Notes under the pieces: model-generated | The model's input: the letters and a program-made list of their open reading frames with translations, nothing else | Databases searched by the model: none | Told to the model about the DNA's origin: nothing | Origin: Chloroflexota bacterium | Lineage (GTDB): Bacteria > Chloroflexota > Dehalococcoidia > GIF9 > UBA5629 | Assembly (NCBI GenBank): GCA_016865855.1 | Contig: VGNX01000002.1 | Span: 81,574 to 145,573 of the forward strand | Reading direction: 5' to 3' | DNA: 64,000 bases | Made by a program: the position numbers and the translations under genes | In this document: positions 19,483-27,483 of the stretch, piece after piece | Layout of the letters: every line of letters begins with the position of its first letter | Position numbering within the stretch: position 1 is the stretch's first letter

Positions 19483-19953
19483 TTACCATCGATAATGAGC
19501 AAAAGCTTTATTTGCCTCGGCCATCTTATGAGTATCTTGACGCTTCTTGATAGTTGCCCCCTGCCCTTGAGAGGCATCTACAATCTCCGCCGCCAATTTC
19601 TCCGCCATAGATTTACCACTACGGGCTTTAGCATAGCTGATCAGCCAGCGCATAGCCAGAGATAGCCCGCGTGTGGTTTCAACCTCAACTGGCACCTGGT
19701 AAGTAGCGCCACCGACACGCCGAGATTTTACTTGAAGTGCGGGAGTAGCATTTTTAAGTGCTTGGTCAAGAACCGCCAGAGGTTCTGTACTTAATTGCTT
19801 ATTAACCAAATCCATAGCATCATAAACAATCCGCTCGGCTGTGGCCTTCCTCCCACCCAACATTATTTTTTTGATGAGTATAGCCACAGTAACATTTCCG
19901 TATTTTGGGTCAGGAGGTGTTTGTCTTTTCGGTACTCTAGTTCGCCTTGGCAT
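19483..19953 (-). CDS. rpsG: 30S ribosomal protein uS7
   Basis: A 156-residue uS7: [60 protein letters not shown] and [20 protein letters not shown], ending AFAHYRW. It nucleates the 30S head and in E. coli represses the str operon. It lies directly after rpsL with no spacer. Confidence 0.97.
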
Positions 19954-20391
19954 TTATTCCTCCCCCGCAACCCTGACTGTTTTGCCTCGCTTAGCCCCAT
20001 ATTTGCTACGCCCTTGCTGGCGATTCTCCACGCCGGCAGTATCCAGAGCACCCCGAATAATATGGTATCGAACTCCGGGCAAATCCTTCACCCTGCCACC
20101 ACGGATAAGCACCACAGAGTGCTCCTGCAAATTATGGCCTTCGCCAGGTATATAAGCGGTGACTTCAATACCGTTGGTCAACCGCACGCGGGCGATTTTG
20201 CGCAAGGCAGAGTTGGGCTTCTTAGGGGTCATAGTTTTGACCTGAATGCAAACCCCGCGCTTCTGCGGCGAGTTCTGACCTCGCCGAACTACGTTCTTCA
20301 GGGCATTGTAAGTAATACCTAGCGCTCGAGCTTTGGTTCGCTTACTAAGCTTCCGCCGCCCTTTTCGAACTAATTGATTGACTGTCGGCAT
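19954..20391 (-). CDS. rpsL: 30S ribosomal protein uS12
   Basis: A 145-residue uS12, first gene of the superoperon. [16 protein letters not shown] contains the decoding-site Lys/Asn region, where streptomycin-resistance changes occur in other species, and [20 protein letters not shown] contains the Asp that RimO methylthiolates. MTPKK is unchanged from the common sequence, so nothing suggests a resistance allele. A leader of about 140 bases separates it from the promoter at 20539-20568. Confidence 0.97.
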
Positions 20392-20532
20392 TTCACTTAT
20401 TCCTTCTTCTAAACAATTAAAAAGCCACCTAGTTGTCTACCGGTCTACTTCCCGAATCAGGTTTGCGTCCCGGTTCAACCAGCCGGCTTACTCAGGTCTT
20501 CCAAACCCAGACTAATAGCTAGTAGACGCTAA
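20392..20532 (-). promoter_or_regulatory. Transcribed leader of the ribosomal superoperon
   Basis: About 140 bases lie between the predicted transcription start (near 20532) and the rpsL ATG. They contain no ORF but are rich in short complementary blocks, for example CCGG at 20472-20475 (in CCCGGTTC) facing CCGG at 20482-20485 across a short loop. An A/G-rich AGAAGAAGGAATAAG stretch precedes the rpsL start as its SD. The length suggests room for attenuation or protein-binding autoregulation, but no known leader motif was recognised. Confidence 0.35.
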
Positions 20533-20538
20533 AAAAGC

Positions 20539-20568
20539 ACTATAGCACAAGCATATAACAAATGTCAA
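20539..20568 (-). promoter_or_regulatory. Sigma70-type promoter of the ribosomal superoperon
   Basis: On the minus strand, a perfect -35 TTGACA (20563-20568) is followed after 18 bases by TATAGT (20539-20544), a one-mismatch -10. It is the only consensus-like promoter upstream of rpsL, and with no gap of more than about 110 bases between the following genes it probably drives the whole 20-kb superoperon, with possible internal promoters not excluded. Confidence 0.75.
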
Positions 20569-20594
20569 CAAGTTGATGTGCGAAACTCCTGCGA

Positions 20595-20753
20595 ATGCAG
20601 TCGCACGGCTTCTACAGCCGGATACTTGATGAGTCCGAGAAGCTCTAATTAGAGCATTCCTGGGGCATCGAAGGCTTGGACGAGGAGATCGCCATCCTGA
20701 GGGTCCTCACCGAAATCGCCGTCCTCTTATTAGGTTTGGCCCCTGTGATATAA
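20595..20753 (+). pseudogene. Decayed ORF fragment (phage/mobile-type hypothetical)
   Basis: Reading from ATG 20595 gives MQSHGFYSRILDESEKL, then TAA, then in the same frame LEHSWGIEGLDEEIAILRVL and a hydrophobic end at 20753. The HGFYSRxLxxxE...LxxxxGIxxLDxEIAxLR pattern resembles small hypothetical proteins found beside phage and mobile genes in Chloroflexota (from memory, not tested). The in-frame stop and missing N-terminal part suggest a remnant at the left edge of the accessory island. The rest of 20570-20891 holds only a TATAAT at 20749-20754, without a convincing -35, which might serve the next gene. Confidence 0.35.
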
Positions 20754-20891
20754 TAGAATTGAATATGTGTATAGTAACTAGGCCGTAGGGTACGAGGCAA
20801 AATGTTGCCAGGACTTTCTATCAACACATTATGTTACGAGGCCATACAGCGCAAATACCGCAATGCTGTGGTCGGATTCATTCGGTAGCGT

Positions 20892-23129
20892 ATGGCAAGC
20901 GCTTTCCCTAGCGATAGCGAAGAGAGAATAAAGCATCTGTTCAAGGAAGAAGAATGGGTTGATATCGTAGAAAACGCCAACATGCGTCGATGTACCGGTG
21001 AGATCGAAACACCTATAAAAGATATCTTCGATTACCTTGGCGTCAACCATTTCTATAATATCTTCGATAAGTACTACGATTTGCTTTTTCAAACGACGGG
21101 TTTATCATCTGATCAAGCCAAAGAAGAAAAGAAGGTAGTCCTGACTTGGACAAAATCAGTAAGGAATGTCAGAGATCCACTATCACATCCAGCCGAACAA
21201 GATATTTCTTGGCTTGATGCAATTGTTGTAATTGACTGTGCCCGACGGGTGGTTGCAAAATTTGACCGAGATATAGCTCTTGAAATACAACAAATCATCC
21301 AACAGTTGGACCTACGCTTTGCCAAAATAGATAGCCTTGATGAGCCTTCGCTGCGACCTCTTCAAGACTCTTTACCGCCCGCGGAATCGATAGCCGTTGA
21401 CTTTATAGGGAGACAAAAGGAACTCACCGCACTATCTGGATGGTTCACAAACCCAGAAACTAGACTCTAGATTCTAGCAGGTGATGGAGGCAAGGGCAAA
21501 ACAGCGATCGCACACAAGTTTGGACTAGATGTAAAGAATCACGCACCAAGACCATATGAAATCGTACTATGGCTGAGTGCCAAACGAAGAAAATTTGTTG
21601 AAGGCACGATTACTTACATAGACACTCCTGATTTTACTAATCTCGAAACTGCGATTAACAAGTTATTATTCGGTTATGGGTTCACCAATGATATCAGCAA
21701 ACCATTAACCGAGAAGAAACCCATCGTTCTAGAATTACTATCAGAACTGCCAGCTCTTGTGATCGTAGATGATATCGATTCGCTGGAAGGCCAAGATGAG
21801 GCGGCAATATCATTCTTTGTGTCCGATGTGTCAAAAACCCCCTCCAAAATACTATTCACATCAAGACGCTCACTTTTTGGCTACGCCCCTAATACAACCC
21901 AGGTTAATGGTTTCAACCGCGAAGACGGAATCGATTTTATCAAATCACGCATAGCCCTTTTTGGGCTCAGACCCAAGGACTTCGCAGAGCCTCACTTTGA
22001 TGCAATTATCAGGGTAACCGATGGCTCTCCACTATACATAGAGGAGTTACTCCGTTTTTGCTGTGTTGGCGTTGGGCTGAAAGAAGCAATGGCAACATGG
22101 GAAAAAGAAGGTGGCGATCTCGCACGTCAATTCGCCCTAAAGCGAGAGTTTGATATGTTAAGCCCTAACGCCAAGCAAGTCCTGTTGGCGTTCTGCCTAA
22201 ATAAGGGGCCATCAACTTTGGACGATGCAGAGGTGATAACCGGGCTAAGCAAAACAGCGGTCCAAGGAGTGCTCGGCGAACTGCAGCGGCTATTTCTCAT
22301 ACCACGACCTACAATTGTAAAAGGGATACCGCGCTTTGATATAAATATAAATACGCGGTCCCTTGTTCTCAACGTCATGTCTCAAACCGACGTATTCAAT
22401 AAGATACAATCCAACGTTAAGAGATTATCGGGCGAACTGCGAATCTCTGGCGAACGACGGCTAGAGGTGACGGAGTACCTAAAGCAGGGGGCAATACTCA
22501 CCAAATTGGAACGCTTTGCAGATGCAGAAGGTGTGCTTCAGAACGGGCTTCGCAAGTACCCTGATGACCCAGACATTCTTGCTCAGCTGGGCAGAACATA
22601 CGCCCGTTGGAAACCTATACCACGAATAGCCGAGGCAAAAGCTCACTTTAGAAGAGCCGCGGAGCTCAAGTGCTCTCAGGAAGACATGTATTATCATTGG
22701 TGGGGGCTGGAGTGCAAAGACTCGGAGTGGAGCAGCGCAGCCCTAGCGGCCGAAAGTGCAGCAAAATTATTCCCAAATAATTGGAAATTCAAATTCTACG
22801 CTGGATATGCTTGCAGCAGGCTCGGGAGACAGCTAAAACTGCAGTTCGCAAGCGACCGGGCTAGATACCAATTACGGAAAGCCGACAAACTTCTCACTGA
22901 GGCCTTGGCCTTAATCAATCTCGAGGACTTGGATTTGTCTGAATACCATCTACATGGGGACATACTCAGATGTTTGGTTCTGAACTGCGAGGCGCAGGGA
23001 CATGTCAAAGATATGGCCCGCTTCCTCACACAGTGGCAGAAAGAACACCCAGATGATAGCGATAGAATTCAGGAGTGCAGTCGACTCATCAGGAAATACC
23101 CCGACTTAGATCGTCAATTGCTTCAATAG
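20892..23129 (+). pseudogene. HEPN (Swt1-like)-STAND ATPase-TPR protein, interrupted by one in-frame TAG
   Basis: One continuous frame of about 745 codons is broken only by TAG at 21468-21470 (codon 193). The N-terminal helical domain (about 1-150) resembles Swt1-like HEPN domains and keeps the R-x4-H ribonuclease motif (R94-DPLS-H99). FIGRQKEL (171-178) opens a STAND/NB-ARC NTPase: Walker A AGDGGKGKT (196-204), Walker B LVIVDDID (about 289-296) and a sensor FTSRRS. A winged-helix-like segment (LSPNAKQVLLAFCL) and a C-terminal TPR-like helical repeat region (about 500-745) follow. This is the plan of NLR-like anti-phage effectors. The stop sits directly before Walker A, where relatives have, as I recall, a Trp (RLW-LAG), so a single TGG-to-TAG change would explain it. 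The part after the stop has no start codon before Walker A (GTG 21759 is after it), so it should be inactive unless read through. Alternatives are a sequencing error or suppression. Confidence 0.8.
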
Positions 23130-23283
23130 TGCAACAAATGTGAATCAAAAACTGACCTATCACTCAATCATCGCAATGCAATCTGGGGCACTAGAGATGG
23201 TTAAGCTGGGGCAGCCTGAGAGAATGTGTAGTTATGTACATGGAATTCCTTGAGTGAAATAGCGAAAAAAAACCAAGCGTTTT

Positions 23284-23691
23284 TCACCGATATTGCTCAA
23301 CCGTAATTCGTTTACTAAGAAGCTCTTTGATAAATGATGTGAGTTCTAGCCGTTCTTTCTCCTCCAAGCCTTTCTCAAGCTCCTCAATGAGACGTTCTGA
23401 TAGCCCCTCTGGATTTATAACTAACGTAAGTGGCAAAAGGATGAGCTGAGGCCAATGTGCTCTTCTCAGAACATCCTCGGGTGGAACACGGTACAATTGA
23501 GCCATCTTTATCAATATTGAGTCGTCAGGCTTTGTCCTACCAGTCTCGTAATTATCGAGTTGCTGCCGATCTTTAAACCCAAGTTCCCTTGCAGCTGCAG
23601 CTGTACCAAGCTTGGTTTTTTGTCCCCGCAACTCTGTAAGGTAAGCACCAAATGGTGTCCGCTTCCGCTGCGGATTCCTCTTAGGACTCAT
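23284..23691 (-). CDS. XRE-family helix-turn-helix regulator
   Basis: A 135-residue protein with an N-terminal HTH (about residues 13-75): FGAYLTELRGQKTKLG, AAARELGF, RQQLDNYETGRTKPDD, LIKMAQLYRVPPEDVLRRA. The C-terminal half is a charged helix (LIEELEKGLEEKERLEL), probably for dimerisation. The ATG at 23691 is chosen because AGAGG lies five bases upstream; a TTG at 23715 is in frame without an SD. It is divergent from the unknown gene at 23983, with two TTGAC-GTCAA palindromes overlapping the two promoters, so it is likely an autorepressor. The target beyond this region is unknown. Confidence 0.8.
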   Translation of the reverse strand: MSPKRNPQRKRTPFGAYLTELRGQKTKLGTAAAARELGFKDRQQLDNYETGRTKPDDSILIKMAQLYRVPPEDVLRRAHWPQLILLPLTLVINPEGLSERLIEELEKGLEEKERLELTSFIKELLSKRITVEQYR

Positions 23692-23717
23692 GATGACCTC
23701 TACACAATCGGACAATT

Positions 23718-23747
23718 ATGTTAACACCACGTTGACACTATTGTCAA
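23718..23747 (-). promoter_or_regulatory. Promoter and palindromic operator of the XRE regulator gene
   Basis: On the minus strand, -35 TTGACA (23742-23747) and -10 TAACAT (23718-23723) are 18 bases apart. The -35 lies within the perfect inverted repeat TTGACA-CTAT-TGTCAA (23732-23747), a plausible operator for the XRE protein itself. Confidence 0.6.
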
Positions 23748-23787
23748 TCCCAAGAAGCAAATTTATGCTGTTAGACAGGGTGAGTGT

Positions 23788-23816
23788 TTGACATTTAGTC
23801 AATTCTATGTTAACAT
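23788..23816 (+). promoter_or_regulatory. Divergent promoter and second operator
   Basis: On the plus strand, -35 TTGACA (23788-23793) and -10 TAACAT (23811-23816) are 17 bases apart. TTGAC-ATTTA-GTCAA (23788-23802) is a near copy of the operator 40 bases away, placed in the same relation to its promoter. TATGTTAACA also occurs at both promoters. This mirror arrangement suggests joint repression of both transcripts. Confidence 0.6.
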
Positions 23817-23872
23817 ATTAATGAGGATTGGCAGAGTTCGGGTTTGACACCTGCATGAAACGAGGTTAAGAT

Positions 23873-23935
23873 ATGAGTCTACAAACCCAACCTAGCCACT
23901 CAAGGGGACTGATGGGTAACCGTTATCGTCTCTAG
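23873..23935 (+). CDS. Possible 20-residue leader peptide
   Basis: An ATG with a GAGG seven bases upstream opens a 20-codon frame (MSLQTQPSHSRGLMGNRYRL) that ends in TAG. It lies on the transcript from the 23788 promoter, between that promoter and the unknown gene at 23983. No family is recognised, and such short frames arise by chance; the SD and position are the only support. Confidence 0.25.
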   Translation: MSLQTQPSHSRGLMGNRYRL

Positions 23936-23982
23936 GATTTGAAGATTGAGGTCAACAGGGATTGTACACTGAGGTACTTGTA

Positions 23983-24438
23983 ATGTTAAAAAGTGAGCAA
24001 GTAGATAAAGAGATTAAGTTATCAGGTGGGAGCAAAGAGCGCTATCCGATTGACCGGATTGACATACTCTTAGCTGCAATGCGTATTTTCTCTAAAGAAG
24101 GAAGAGATGAAGTAAGCTTTTCTGAATTTCAGGAGAGTATCGCAGAGTTCCAGCGAGAATTTCCCTCGTTGGGTTATGCCTTTGCGGAGCGATTCCTTCT
24201 TTCTTTAGATTTACTTACCGACTTAAGCAACTTGGATTACCGAGGTTATATACGTGATTATCATTGCCGGCTTGATGCTTTACTGCCTAAGAGATTTCTT
24301 TCTTTGACTGCCTTAGGGCGAGGCCAAGGTAATAAGGTATTGCAAACGCTCACAGACGATGTAGTGGATAGTCTTACAAGAGCAGTGAAAATCTCAATAA
24401 AAAATTACAATGAGAGATGGCGTTTGTGGGCTAGGTAA
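23983..24438 (+). CDS. Unrecognised protein, divergent from XRE regulator
   Basis: A 151-residue, predicted mostly helical cytoplasmic protein (MLKSEQVDKEIKLSGGSKER start; later DRIDILLAAMRIFSKEG and FAERFLLSLDLLTDLSNLDY). No domain is recognised. The start is put at ATG 23983, which has GAGGT seven to eight bases upstream; a TTG at 23962 is also in frame. It has neither signal peptide nor membrane segment. It is transcribed from the operator-bearing promoter at 23788 and converges with the dCTP-deaminase-fold gene, overlapping it by eight bases at the stop codons. The context (XRE, broken STAND gene, membrane deaminase-fold protein) suggests a defence or mobile-element role; that is inference. 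Confidence 0.65.
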   Translation: MLKSEQVDKEIKLSGGSKERYPIDRIDILLAAMRIFSKEGRDEVSFSEFQESIAEFQREFPSLGYAFAERFLLSLDLLTDLSNLDYRGYIRDYHCRLDALLPKRFLSLTALGRGQGNKVLQTLTDDVVDSLTRAVKISIKNYNERWRLWAR

Positions 24439-25327
24439 ATAGGTAAATCAAGAGCCCTACGACTCCACCTATTATAGCTGCAGCGATAGTACCACAGATT
24501 GTTAGTACACCTATAGTGAGGTTCCGAGTCCATTTGGTCTGTTCGTTATATTGATCGACCAACTTATCGAATGCTACCTTTGTTGCTGCAGACGTTGCCA
24601 GAGTTACTATGTCCGATGAGACTTCTTTCTCTATCCAATTACCAATTTCCCTCTGTGTCAGAAGGAACATGCCGCGAACTACATCCCAAGGCCAGCCATA
24701 CAAATCAACTATTTTTTCCATATCATCCTTATCGACCTTCTCTGGTAACAGGAGAGTTTGCTGTCTAGCGTGTGTAAATTTGATGCTGCCGATTTTAGTT
24801 CTTCCTAAGAAGTGGACTTTATCCCGCGTGAGTACTGTCTCTGCTTCTGAGGTCTGCATAAAGTAGCATGTGCAAAATTCCTCTCCATAATCAAGAGCGA
24901 CAGGATTTTTTGCTAGGTTTGTAAAGCCTATGAGTAATTTGCCGTACCAAGTGGGATCTATTCTAGTTGCAGATAGAGAGGTGCCTTCACAAATCCATCT
25001 AGCTCTGGGAACAATCATTGCTAATACATCTTTAGGTAAGCATATGTATTCCTTGGAGAGAATCAAAACTGTTTCACTAGGACCAATATCGATGTGTTGT
25101 CCTTCTGTAAGCGGTTGGACGACGTGTGGGTTCCTCAATGAGACGTATTCTTCACCCACAGACAGGTCATAGCAACAGGGTCCTAAAGCATAGGTTTCAA
25201 ATGGGTCAATCACAATTCTGTTCCCTATTTTGGCCCATGCACCCTCTTTCCACCACTCTTTTGCTTGCTCTGCCTTTTGGTGATCTTGAATTATGCGGTC
25301 TTTTAAGGCTTTATCCGCTAGAATCAT
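24431..25327 (-). CDS. dCTP deaminase/dUTPase-fold protein with C-terminal membrane anchor, active site altered
   Basis: A 298-residue protein. MILADKALKDRI, then VIDPFETYALGPCCYDLSVG, KEYICLPKDVLAMIVPR and SATRIDPTWYGKLLIGFTNL align with dCTP deaminase (Dcd) from its first residues. However, the Dcd RSSxGR motif reads RARWICEG, the catalytic Glu of the xLEF segment is Gly (LLIGFTN), and the GQLxF Gln is replaced (EEFCTCYF). Deamination is therefore unlikely, although nucleotide binding may persist. An extra WWKEGAWAKIG insert lies near residue 25. After a helical linker (about 205-265), the end is one hydrophobic segment (IGVLTICGTIAAAIIGGVVG plus LLIYLF), a tail anchor. The ATG at 25327 has GGAG six bases upstream; TTG 25345 is also in frame. 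A role as a membrane-tethered nucleotide sensor in defence is a hypothesis. Confidence 0.75.
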   Translation of the reverse strand: MILADKALKDRIIQDHQKAEQAKEWWKEGAWAKIGNRIVIDPFETYALGPCCYDLSVGEEYVSLRNPHVVQPLTEGQHIDIGPSETVLILSKEYICLPKDVLAMIVPRARWICEGTSLSATRIDPTWYGKLLIGFTNLAKNPVALDYGEEFCTCYFMQTSEAETVLTRDKVHFLGRTKIGSIKFTHARQQTLLLPEKVDKDDMEKIVDLYGWPWDVVRGMFLLTQREIGNWIEKEVSSDIVTLATSAATKVAFDKLVDQYNEQTKWTRNLTIGVLTICGTIAAAIIGGVVGLLIYLFT

Positions 25328-25449
25328 AATTAGCTCCGCCTTCAAGCACTAAATATCTAGATGCCTCCGCAGCGAGTGATCAGAATCCTACGAACAATTG
25401 TAATAGAGTATAAGCGAACTTGCAAGCAATAGTTGGGTTTCGGGAGAAA

Positions 25450-26370
25450 CTACTTTGATTCGTCGAGCAGAAGTCTGGCGATTGCTTTCATTTCCTCGGT
25501 GGCTTTTGAGTTAATGAGGGTAGTGCCTTCGAAGCCAGCTTCGCTGAGTTCGGGGTCGAAGGAAATTGCGCCGAGGATCCTGACGTCCTTCTTATCCAGC
25601 TCCTCAGTCATCCGCTGCCTCGTTTTCTCCGATGGGACTTTATTGAGGATTGCCCTGACCCTGCTTATGCCCATACCCTCAGCCATGTACGTTATCCTCT
25701 CTGCAATCGCCATGGACTCGAAGGAGGGCTCGACTACTATCAGCACTGTGTCCACGTTCCGCTCCACACCCCTGCCAAAGCTCTCAATGCCCGCCTCAAT
25801 GTCTATGAGCACAAGCTCTTTGTCCTGCACAGCAAGCTTTCCTACAAGGTCTCCAGCTATATTTGCCATGGAGCAGGCGCAGCCCTGGAAGGGATCCTCG
25901 ATCTTGCCCACCATGAGGAACTTGAAGCCATCACCACCGAGCATGTATTCAGAGGGGATGTCCGCAACCGTTATTCGGTCTGGCGTGAGCCATTTGGCAG
26001 TTACTTCTTTCTTGCCTGAAGGTAGCCTGCTCAGTACCGTCATCAACGCCTTGGGCTGTTTATCAAAGCCGAACATGCGGTAGAGCCCAGGGTTCGACTC
26101 ATCAGTGTCCAAAACAAGCACGCTGTAGCCCGCTTCTCTCAAGGCATTTGCCAGCAGAGTGACGACTGTGCTCTTCCCCACACCACCCTTGCCGCAGACG
26201 GCTATTTTCCCGATGGTGCTGCTCTTGAGAGCGTGAGATTTCAAATAGGCTCTGATTTTCTTAGAAGCTTCGACCATCTCGTCCTTGGTCTTGGCATAAC
26301 ACATGCCGCAGTCGATGCAGTCGTCATCCTCGTAGAAAGCCGCCCCCATGGGGCAGTGGAACAGGCCCAT
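25450..26370 (-). CDS. cooC: CooC-type nickel-insertion ATPase (CODH maturation) with N-terminal Cys motif
   Basis: A 306-residue MinD/ParA-family ATPase. The deviant Walker A is CGKGGVGKST (about residues 59-68); LVLDTDESNPGL and LVLIDIEAGIESFGRG carry the switch and Walker B Asp. A CxC motif (FQGCACSMAN, about residues 165-172) corresponds to the metal-binding pair of CooC, the ATPase that helps load Ni into the CODH C-cluster. A 45-residue N-terminal extension has CxxCxxC (CIDCGMC), a half-ferredoxin motif absent from the simplest CooC proteins. SD GGAG lies eight bases before the ATG. It is 15 bases downstream of the Fe-S gene at 26386-27483, so the two form an operon. The CODH itself is 28 kb away, and a different client cannot be excluded. 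Confidence 0.8.
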   Translation of the reverse strand: MGLFHCPMGAAFYEDDDCIDCGMCYAKTKDEMVEASKKIRAYLKSHALKSSTIGKIAVCGKGGVGKSTVVTLLANALREAGYSVLVLDTDESNPGLYRMFGFDKQPKALMTVLSRLPSGKKEVTAKWLTPDRITVADIPSEYMLGGDGFKFLMVGKIEDPFQGCACSMANIAGDLVGKLAVQDKELVLIDIEAGIESFGRGVERNVDTVLIVVEPSFESMAIAERITYMAEGMGISRVRAILNKVPSEKTRQRMTEELDKKDVRILGAISFDPELSEAGFEGTTLINSKATEEMKAIARLLLDESK

Positions 26371-26385
26371 CCAAGATTCTCCACG

Positions 26386-27483
26386 TTAGTATATGGTTAC
26401 GCTCTCAGGAACATGCTCGGGCGGCCGTACCAGCTTCATCGTCCTAGCTCCAGACGGGCAGGAGATTACACAGCAGCCACAGCCCCGGCAGATCTCCGGG
26501 TCAACATATGCCCGCTCGCCACCGACTTCGGGATAGTGCTTCATGGAGATAGCTCCGAACTGGCACCTTTCCACACAGGTGCCGCAGGCTTGGCACTGCT
26601 CCGGATGGGCTTCAGCGACGAAGCGGCTCTTGGCTGCGATCTTAATTGCCATGCAGCAGCAGTAGTGGCAGTTGCAGACCAACTGGTTGACTTCTCTCTG
26701 GTTTACCGTAGCGTTGACTGTGGGATACTGGTCTAGTTTATCCAGAACTTCGAGTGCCTGCTCATACGTGATTTTCCTGCCGGCTCCGCGGTCGAGGTTA
26801 TACTGGGCAGTGCGGCCAAGCGTTATGCACGACTCTACAGGGACACCACACCATCTGTCCGTGTGAGACCTCTTGCAGCCACAATGAAGCAAAACCATGA
26901 GGTCTTGCGCCTTCAAGATAGCCCTTATGTCTTCGAAGGGCTGGACGCCGGAAATATTCTCTACCGATTTCCACCTGGGCAAGACTCTGAACTCGCTGTG
27001 TGGGCTCAGGTTTTCGGGCTTGGGCTGGTTCATTGGTCCCTCCATGACACCCCAGAGGTCGAAGTAGCTCCTGCCAAGTTGCTTATCGAACCTAGGGTTA
27101 CCCAGCGCTGCATCGTGAAGTTGTATGAAAGTGCGAGCCATGGAAGGCCCCTTTTTAGTGGGGAAAAGAAGGCCTTTTTCATAAAGCTCCCTTACATGCT
27201 TGTCTACCACCTTCTTATCCATGTTTAGCTTCTTAGCAAATTCCTCCGATACTTCCAGTGACCTGCCGGCTGATTCTACACGGTACAGGTCCGGCAGAGC
27301 AGCTACTATCTTTGCCTCCTCCAGGTTCGCTAGCTTGGAAAGTATCCTCTGCATGTGCTCCGAGTCACCAGCCCCAATTTTAGCCGCTAGCTCCTTGTAA
27401 ATAGGGGCAATCTCTCCCTTCTCCGCATTAACCCTTGCCTCCAACTCCTTATAGATCTGCTCGGCATCAGTTTTCTTACTCAT
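26386..27483 (-). CDS. Winged-helix/4Fe-4S dicluster protein
   Basis: A 365-residue protein. The first ~120 residues look like a helical lead plus a winged helix (AALPDLYRVESAGRSLEVSE, then KHVRELYEKGLLFPTKKGP). A Cys-rich middle follows (LLHCGCKRSHTDRWCGVPVE; then VCNCHYCCCM). The end has two ferredoxin motifs (CQACGTCVERCQFGAISM; CRGCGCCVISCPSGARTM) for two [4Fe-4S] clusters. The Cys-rich middle and double ferredoxin also occur in the divergent gene at 27787 (CACRRS, CNCDYPDC), so the two are distant paralogues. It is followed by cooC in an operon. Probably a redox partner or corrinoid/CODH reactivase-like protein; no specific function is recognised. AAGGAG lies 11 bases before the ATG. Confidence 0.75.
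   Translation of the reverse strand: MSKKTDAEQIYKELEARVNAEKGEIAPIYKELAAKIGAGDSEHMQRILSKLANLEEAKIVAALPDLYRVESAGRSLEVSEEFAKKLNMDKKVVDKHVRELYEKGLLFPTKKGPSMARTFIQLHDAALGNPRFDKQLGRSYFDLWGVMEGPMNQPKPENLSPHSEFRVLPRWKSVENISGVQPFEDIRAILKAQDLMVLLHCGCKRSHTDRWCGVPVESCITLGRTAQYNLDRGAGRKITYEQALEVLDKLDQYPTVNATVNQREVNQLVCNCHYCCCMAIKIAAKSRFVAEAHPEQCQACGTCVERCQFGAISMKHYPEVGGERAYVDPEICRGCGCCVISCPSGARTMKLVRPPEHVPESVTIY

Follow-up and report, generated by a model that had tools for sequence, protein, structure and literature searches.

Some immune systems are suspected of reading the nucleotide pool, but the sensors identified so far are few. AvcD, an anti-phage dCTP deaminase, is zinc-dependent. Of the described proteins, VC0175/AvcD has been characterized as deoxycytidylate-deaminase-related (PMC12409362), and trimeric DCDs are zinc-independent (PMC12088426). 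Burroughs et al. (2015), as cited in PMC7159879, described conflict systems centered on nucleotides, in which SLATT 2TM proteins are the effectors and TIR also occurs. In the literature that we searched, there is no description of a transmembrane (TM)-anchored DCD; coverage was incomplete, so this is weak evidence of absence. Here, we describe such a protein, encoded in a 64,000-nucleotide stretch of DNA from a Chloroflexota bacterium (“the window”), together with the small gene that it overlaps. Judged from their sequences, the DCD-TM gene and its ~155-aa partner form a genuine, conserved pair, a variation on a known fold superfamily, and they probably constitute an undescribed two-gene system with a putative function. 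Our preferred reading, to which we give a probability of roughly 0.4, is that the pair is a membrane-tethered, deamination-incompetent nucleotide receptor with a dedicated partner, acquired horizontally and most likely serving as an anti-phage module.

The DCD-TM gene (24431..25327, minus strand) encodes 298 amino acids, beginning at an ATG codon with GGAG positioned 7–8 nt upstream. The protein comprises a DCD domain (residues ~36–163), a helical linker that includes YGWPWDVV (~210–217), and a TM segment (~272–296). It matches PF22769 in Pfam (E=2e-13; 51 bits versus a gathering cut-off of 27) and the “dCTP deaminase” family in PHROG (1e-16), while its score for TIGR02274 in NCBIfam (63.4 bits) falls under the equivalog cut-off of 92.8. 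The C-terminal residues, ~272–296, form a single strong hydrophobic segment (KD mean of 2.3); the basic residues of KWTRN ahead of this segment suggest that the protein is tail-anchored and that its domain lies in the cytoplasm. In an AlphaFold2 model built with four sequences, pLDDT is mostly 70–90 for residues 1–160, with low confidence in the C-terminal half. When the modeled DCD domain was compared to the PDB using Foldseek, the best TM-score, normalized to the target, was 0.79 (E=1e-13). Domain homology and a matching fold thus both make the protein a member of the DCD/dUTPase fold superfamily, and the earlier note, which had claimed this fold and a C-terminal TM segment and had suggested structure prediction as a check, was correct on both counts. 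Structurally, Thermococcus-type dUTPases match best, with dUMP bound in one case, and dCTP deaminases rank next; the same dUTPases are also the top PDB matches by sequence. Since the closest experimental structures belong to archaeal dUTPases, the protein should not be measured against “dCTP deaminase”.

The residues expected of a deaminase are replaced. The position of the catalytic Glu (E138 of E. coli, in LEFYN) is occupied by G134 (in LLIGFTN). Motif 2, RSSLAR in DCD, reads RARWIC (within PRARWICEG), such that R108 is retained and Ser is replaced by Ala. The Gln of the phosphate-binding motif (motif 4) is T153. The protein therefore falls outside TIGR02274 by its score, by the catalytic Glu (L-E-F/L-x-N), and by the RSSLxR form of motif 2; it also lacks the complete set of phosphate residues of trimeric dUTPases (the Arg-Ser of motif 2 and the Gln of motif 4), of which R108 alone is kept. 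By contrast with these substitutions, motif 3 of dUTPases (D-x-x-Y/W-x-G) is present as D124-P-T-W127-Y-G. By its residue pattern, the protein is predicted to be non-deaminating. Nucleotide binding is not assured, because the phosphate-binding Ser, Arg and Gln of motifs 2 and 4 are altered. The earlier note had described all three replacements as lost catalytic residues. Their absence stands; “loss” is less apt, since the absence is a feature of an entire clade and the nearest solved relatives are dUTPases, which lack that Glu.

Our search for homologues covered genomes and plasmids as well as phages and viral contigs. A full-length archaeal orthologue (L074:9663-10493+) is 39% identical across its whole length, in an alignment of 286 aa, and retains KARWIxEG, TRVDPTWFGK, YGxPWD, and the terminal TM segment, giving the consensus [RK]ARWIxEG, TR[IV]DPTW[YF]GK, YGxPWD for the two proteins; the search for homologues with the same fusion that the earlier note had recommended was thus successful. 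A planctomycete protein (L075) is a third member. The sister group comprises proteins from Methanoperedens (L021), an uncultured archaeon (L024), Desulfobacterales (L022), and Planctomycetota (L023), which have in common the motif PRFxxVxxG...KIDPTWYGK. Two C-terminal TM segments are found in each of L022 and L023; L021 is a shorter form that lacks the TM segment, and the L024 sequence is fragmentary, lying close to a contig end. In the phylogenetic tree, the window protein (P0001) groups with L074 (support 100/92), and the PTW[YF]G group as a whole (91/81) is separate from both housekeeping DCDs (100/98) and archaeal dUTPase-like proteins (99/98). The deaminase Glu is absent from every member of the clade, with A, G or P at that position; PTW[YF]G is invariant across phyla; and YGxP[WF]D occurs in 5/5 of the clade's TM-bearing proteins and in 0 of the other DCDs collected. 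The missing Glu is therefore an old clade trait rather than a sign of decay. We found no relatives of the clade among the viral contigs searched, and a tblastn search of phages with DCD-TM matched solely viral dUTPase/DCD-like genes. Elsewhere in the same order, one genome (G030) has two tandem DCD-domain ORFs (L086:3046-4103), only one of which carries the Glu.

These data bear on the possibility that the protein is an active membrane-anchored, dUTPase-like nucleotide hydrolase rather than a deaminase, functioning either as a pool enzyme or as a dNTP-depleting effector. Such an activity would fit with Thermococcus-type dUTPases being the best PDB matches in structure and sequence, and with the fact that D124, the Asp of motif 3, and W127, an aromatic residue, are invariant in the clade. 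However, the serines and the second Arg of motif 2 and the Gln of motif 4 are substituted, and the glycine-rich motif 5 of dUTPases is not seen, the C-terminus consisting instead of the linker and TM segment. We consider hydrolysis unlikely, but it is one of the two leading alternatives to our preferred reading, next to the toxin-antitoxin pair discussed below.

The partner gene (23962..24438, plus strand) encodes 158 amino acids, or 151 if, as is likely, the real start is the ATG at 23983. The two genes are convergent, with an 8-bp tail-to-tail overlap of their stop regions (24431..24438: TAG of the minus-strand gene, TAA of the plus-strand gene). The partner has no matches in Pfam, NCBIfam, or PADLOC, and its family is unrecognizable; an AlphaFold2 model of the partner alone has a pLDDT of 39. 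A homologue of the partner (26% identity, E=1e-17 in a single comparison) is convergent with the archaeal orthologue, L074, with an overlap of ~23 bp. A weaker homologue (17% identity) is convergent with L075, with an overlap of ~41 bp. A profile built from the three partners picks up a single strong copy per genome in these three. Elsewhere, including the genomes of the radical-SAM subclade and the sister species, the profile returns only noise (E of 0.009 or worse overall, and 0.026 or worse in the ten other genomes searched with it); partners were found neither on plasmids nor on viral contigs, and matches to phages (E of 0.04 or worse) were treated as noise. We found just three exact instances of this tail-to-tail overlapping arrangement with both genes homologous, of which the planctomycete case is weak. 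Nonetheless, a chance pairing is unlikely because homology, orientation, and overlap agree across three phyla and two domains of life. The earlier note had singled out the DCD-TM gene, with its neighbors, as the best candidate for an undescribed system; a conserved unit does exist, but its conserved partner is the gene at 23962-24438, which that note did not name. In the archaeon, short ORFs similar to a methyltransferase and to a ThaI-like endonuclease lie next to the two genes. At another locus (L080:1146-5409), where AAA and SMC-like genes are among the neighbors, a DCD-TM gene converges with a small gene that the partner profile does not match.

The pair could also resemble a toxin-antitoxin system, in which DCD-TM, or its TM segment, is a membrane toxin restrained by the ~155-aa protein or by the antisense overlap of the 3' ends. 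The small size, the sporadic distribution, and the tail-to-tail overlap kept in three genomes are as such a pair would have them. On the other hand, the partner is dissimilar to any known antitoxin, protein antitoxins are rarely convergent, and the overlap varies in length (8, 23, and 41 bp), making this an improbable explanation.

Looking beyond the clade, TM segments and the catalytic Glu appear to be mutually exclusive. Among 71 scorable homologues, 25 have a C-terminal TM segment, none of them with the Glu, and 32 have the Glu, none of them with a TM segment; the associated Fisher p-value of 1.6e-9 is only indicative, because a profile of the Glu-less clade was used to gather the set, and because sequences that are related do not count as independent observations. 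The earlier note had allowed for homologues that conserve the catalytic Glu at a shifted position; this was sought and is absent in the 25 TM homologues. The gene neighborhoods differ as well. The neighbors match 57 PADLOC families for one set of 78 proteins, mainly from TM-type loci, versus 2 for 74 proteins from Glu-type loci, a census that is a rough measure because one protein may match several families, that tallies families rather than proteins, and that contrasts accessory with housekeeping loci. For the wider class, this agrees with the clustering with defense genes on which the earlier note had proposed to judge its idea, and a purely housekeeping context, which that note had named as the opposite outcome, is not what we see.

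TM-type cousins on alphaproteobacterial plasmids adjoin genes for uracil-DNA glycosylase, MazG, HTH, ImmA/IrrE, and C1 peptidase proteins. The cassette comprises HTH, ImmA/IrrE-like, C1 peptidase, unknown, uracil-DNA glycosylase, MazG-like, DCD-like; it occurs at L108, L111, L112, and L113 and partially at L110 and L025, is not complete in every locus, and has a TM-bearing DCD-like protein at L108 and L110-L113. Other TM-type cousins neighbor SIR2-TPR (L082) or, at another locus, DUF4062, a family that a recent report identifies as an anti-phage NADase (PMC13174449). Within the sister group, L022:7872-14574 and L024:113-5099 share a cassette of DCD-like, radical SAM/SPASM, a conserved ~215-aa unknown, ThsB-type TIR, and SLATT_1 genes, and the DCD and radical SAM genes of this set also occur in L021 and L023; the cassette is possibly an undescribed defense system in its own right. 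The protein beside radical SAM in L022 and L023 had been read by eye as a uracil-DNA glycosylase, which profile comparison does not support, and matches of the radical-SAM neighbor to pVip were taken as superfamily similarity only.

In two further cousins, a two-TM DCD is followed directly by a dUTPase gene: on a Peribacillus plasmid (L026:6342-9395), where SIR2 is present, and in a Methanoperedens-phylum genome (L081:8532-9877), with a CARF-like gene nearby. dUTPases are common among phage proteins. Both points would suit a decoy or counter-defense sensor, whose fold mimics phage dUTPase/DCD and serves as a target for phage proteins to bind, or which monitors phage dUTPase, and which triggers a response at the membrane. 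However, the window locus lacks a dut neighbor and the interaction is purely conjectural, and we regard this as very unlikely.

The pair lies within an accessory insertion of ~4.9 kb (20572..25445), between rpsL and a CooC-like gene. A sister species of the same genus (G003) is collinear on both flanks and has ~160 bp in place of 20572-25445; since it lacks the segment, the pair was gained on, or lost with, the 4.9-kb segment. Gain is favored over loss because the module is rare in the order, the DCD-TM gene being found in 1/84 genomes (the source genome alone). There is no integrase among the ORFs of the island (20572-25445), neither a long terminal repeat nor a target-site duplication was seen at its ends, and no Rfam RNA was found in 19900-26400. 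The island also encodes an NLR/STAND-like protein with TPRs (20892..23129, plus strand) and an XRE-type HTH protein (23284..23715, minus strand). As the earlier note had said, the NLR-like gene is broken: one in-frame TAA, near 21468, lies just upstream of the P-loop, with the remainder open. That note had also treated the NLR-like and XRE genes as parts of the system; we rejected this, as neither has homologues beside other members of the module. The defense-like neighbors in the window are limited to such genes that are not conserved with the module. Although the NLR-like gene is visibly interrupted, it is hardly credible that DCD-TM is likewise a relic, i.e., a decayed ordinary DCD or dUTPase that retains the fold alone, given its intact ORF, the 39% identical archaeal protein with the same odd motifs, the invariance of PTW[YF]G across phyla, and the separate housekeeping DCD with Glu in the source genome (L018); in view of the cross-domain conservation of sequence and motifs, we rejected the idea of a pseudogene.

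The earlier note had suggested that the protein might be a sensor or effector, and our reading of it as a receptor or effector is likewise a hypothesis. For the membrane-tethered receptor with a dedicated partner, we envisage the following sequence of events: (i) a cytoplasmic trimer of the DCD domain would bind a pyrimidine (d)NTP, or a similar nucleotide that phage has altered; (ii) a change in ligand occupancy would pass via the helical linker (YGxPWD) to the C-terminal TM helices; (iii) these helices would provide the output, as membrane perturbation or scaffolding at the membrane; and (iv) the ~155-aa partner would be an inhibitor or second component of the DCD-TM protein. The gene context suggests a defense role, and the two genes would together be a horizontally acquired module, most likely directed against phages. 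More tentatively, there may be a widespread and hitherto undescribed class of membrane-anchored, Glu-less proteins of the dUTPase fold that act as nucleotide-pool receptors switching a membrane output in conflict systems of prokaryotes, with the window pair as one two-gene version common to bacteria and archaea. The fold-plus-TM design does recur across phyla beside uracil-DNA glycosylase, MazG, dUTPase, TIR, SLATT, and SIR2 genes. If the proposal is true, a trimeric nucleotide-binding fold with membrane helices would offer a simple means of coupling dNTP/uracil-nucleotide status to a membrane response.

Compared with SLATT/TIR conflict systems, there is a likeness in the combination of a nucleotide-related domain with a membrane output, and L022 and L024 of the sister subclade carry SLATT_1 and ThsB_TIR; the window gene differs in having no SLATT, TIR, or radical SAM gene adjoining it. 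With the anti-phage dCTP deaminases (AvcD and the set of Tal et al.), the common theme is deoxynucleotides in defense. These had been cited by the earlier note as precedent, and they do not serve as one: AvcD-type proteins belong to the cytidine-deaminase superfamily, have a different fold, and deplete dCTP, whereas the window protein has no such Pfam domain or PADLOC match. The dCTP deaminase Dcd (TIGR02274; E. coli 1xs1) has the same fold and overall domain order; relative to Dcd, the window protein has Glu138, Ser111, and Arg115 replaced, a sub-cut-off score, an added TM segment, and a separate clade in the tree. Finally, while Thermococcus-type trimeric dUTPases (PDB 8y1w, 9ln0, and 9ln3) differ in having RSSLAREG and the Gln intact and in being soluble proteins of ~155 aa with no TM segment, they share with the window protein the fold, the absence of the deaminase Glu, and the motif-3 Asp.
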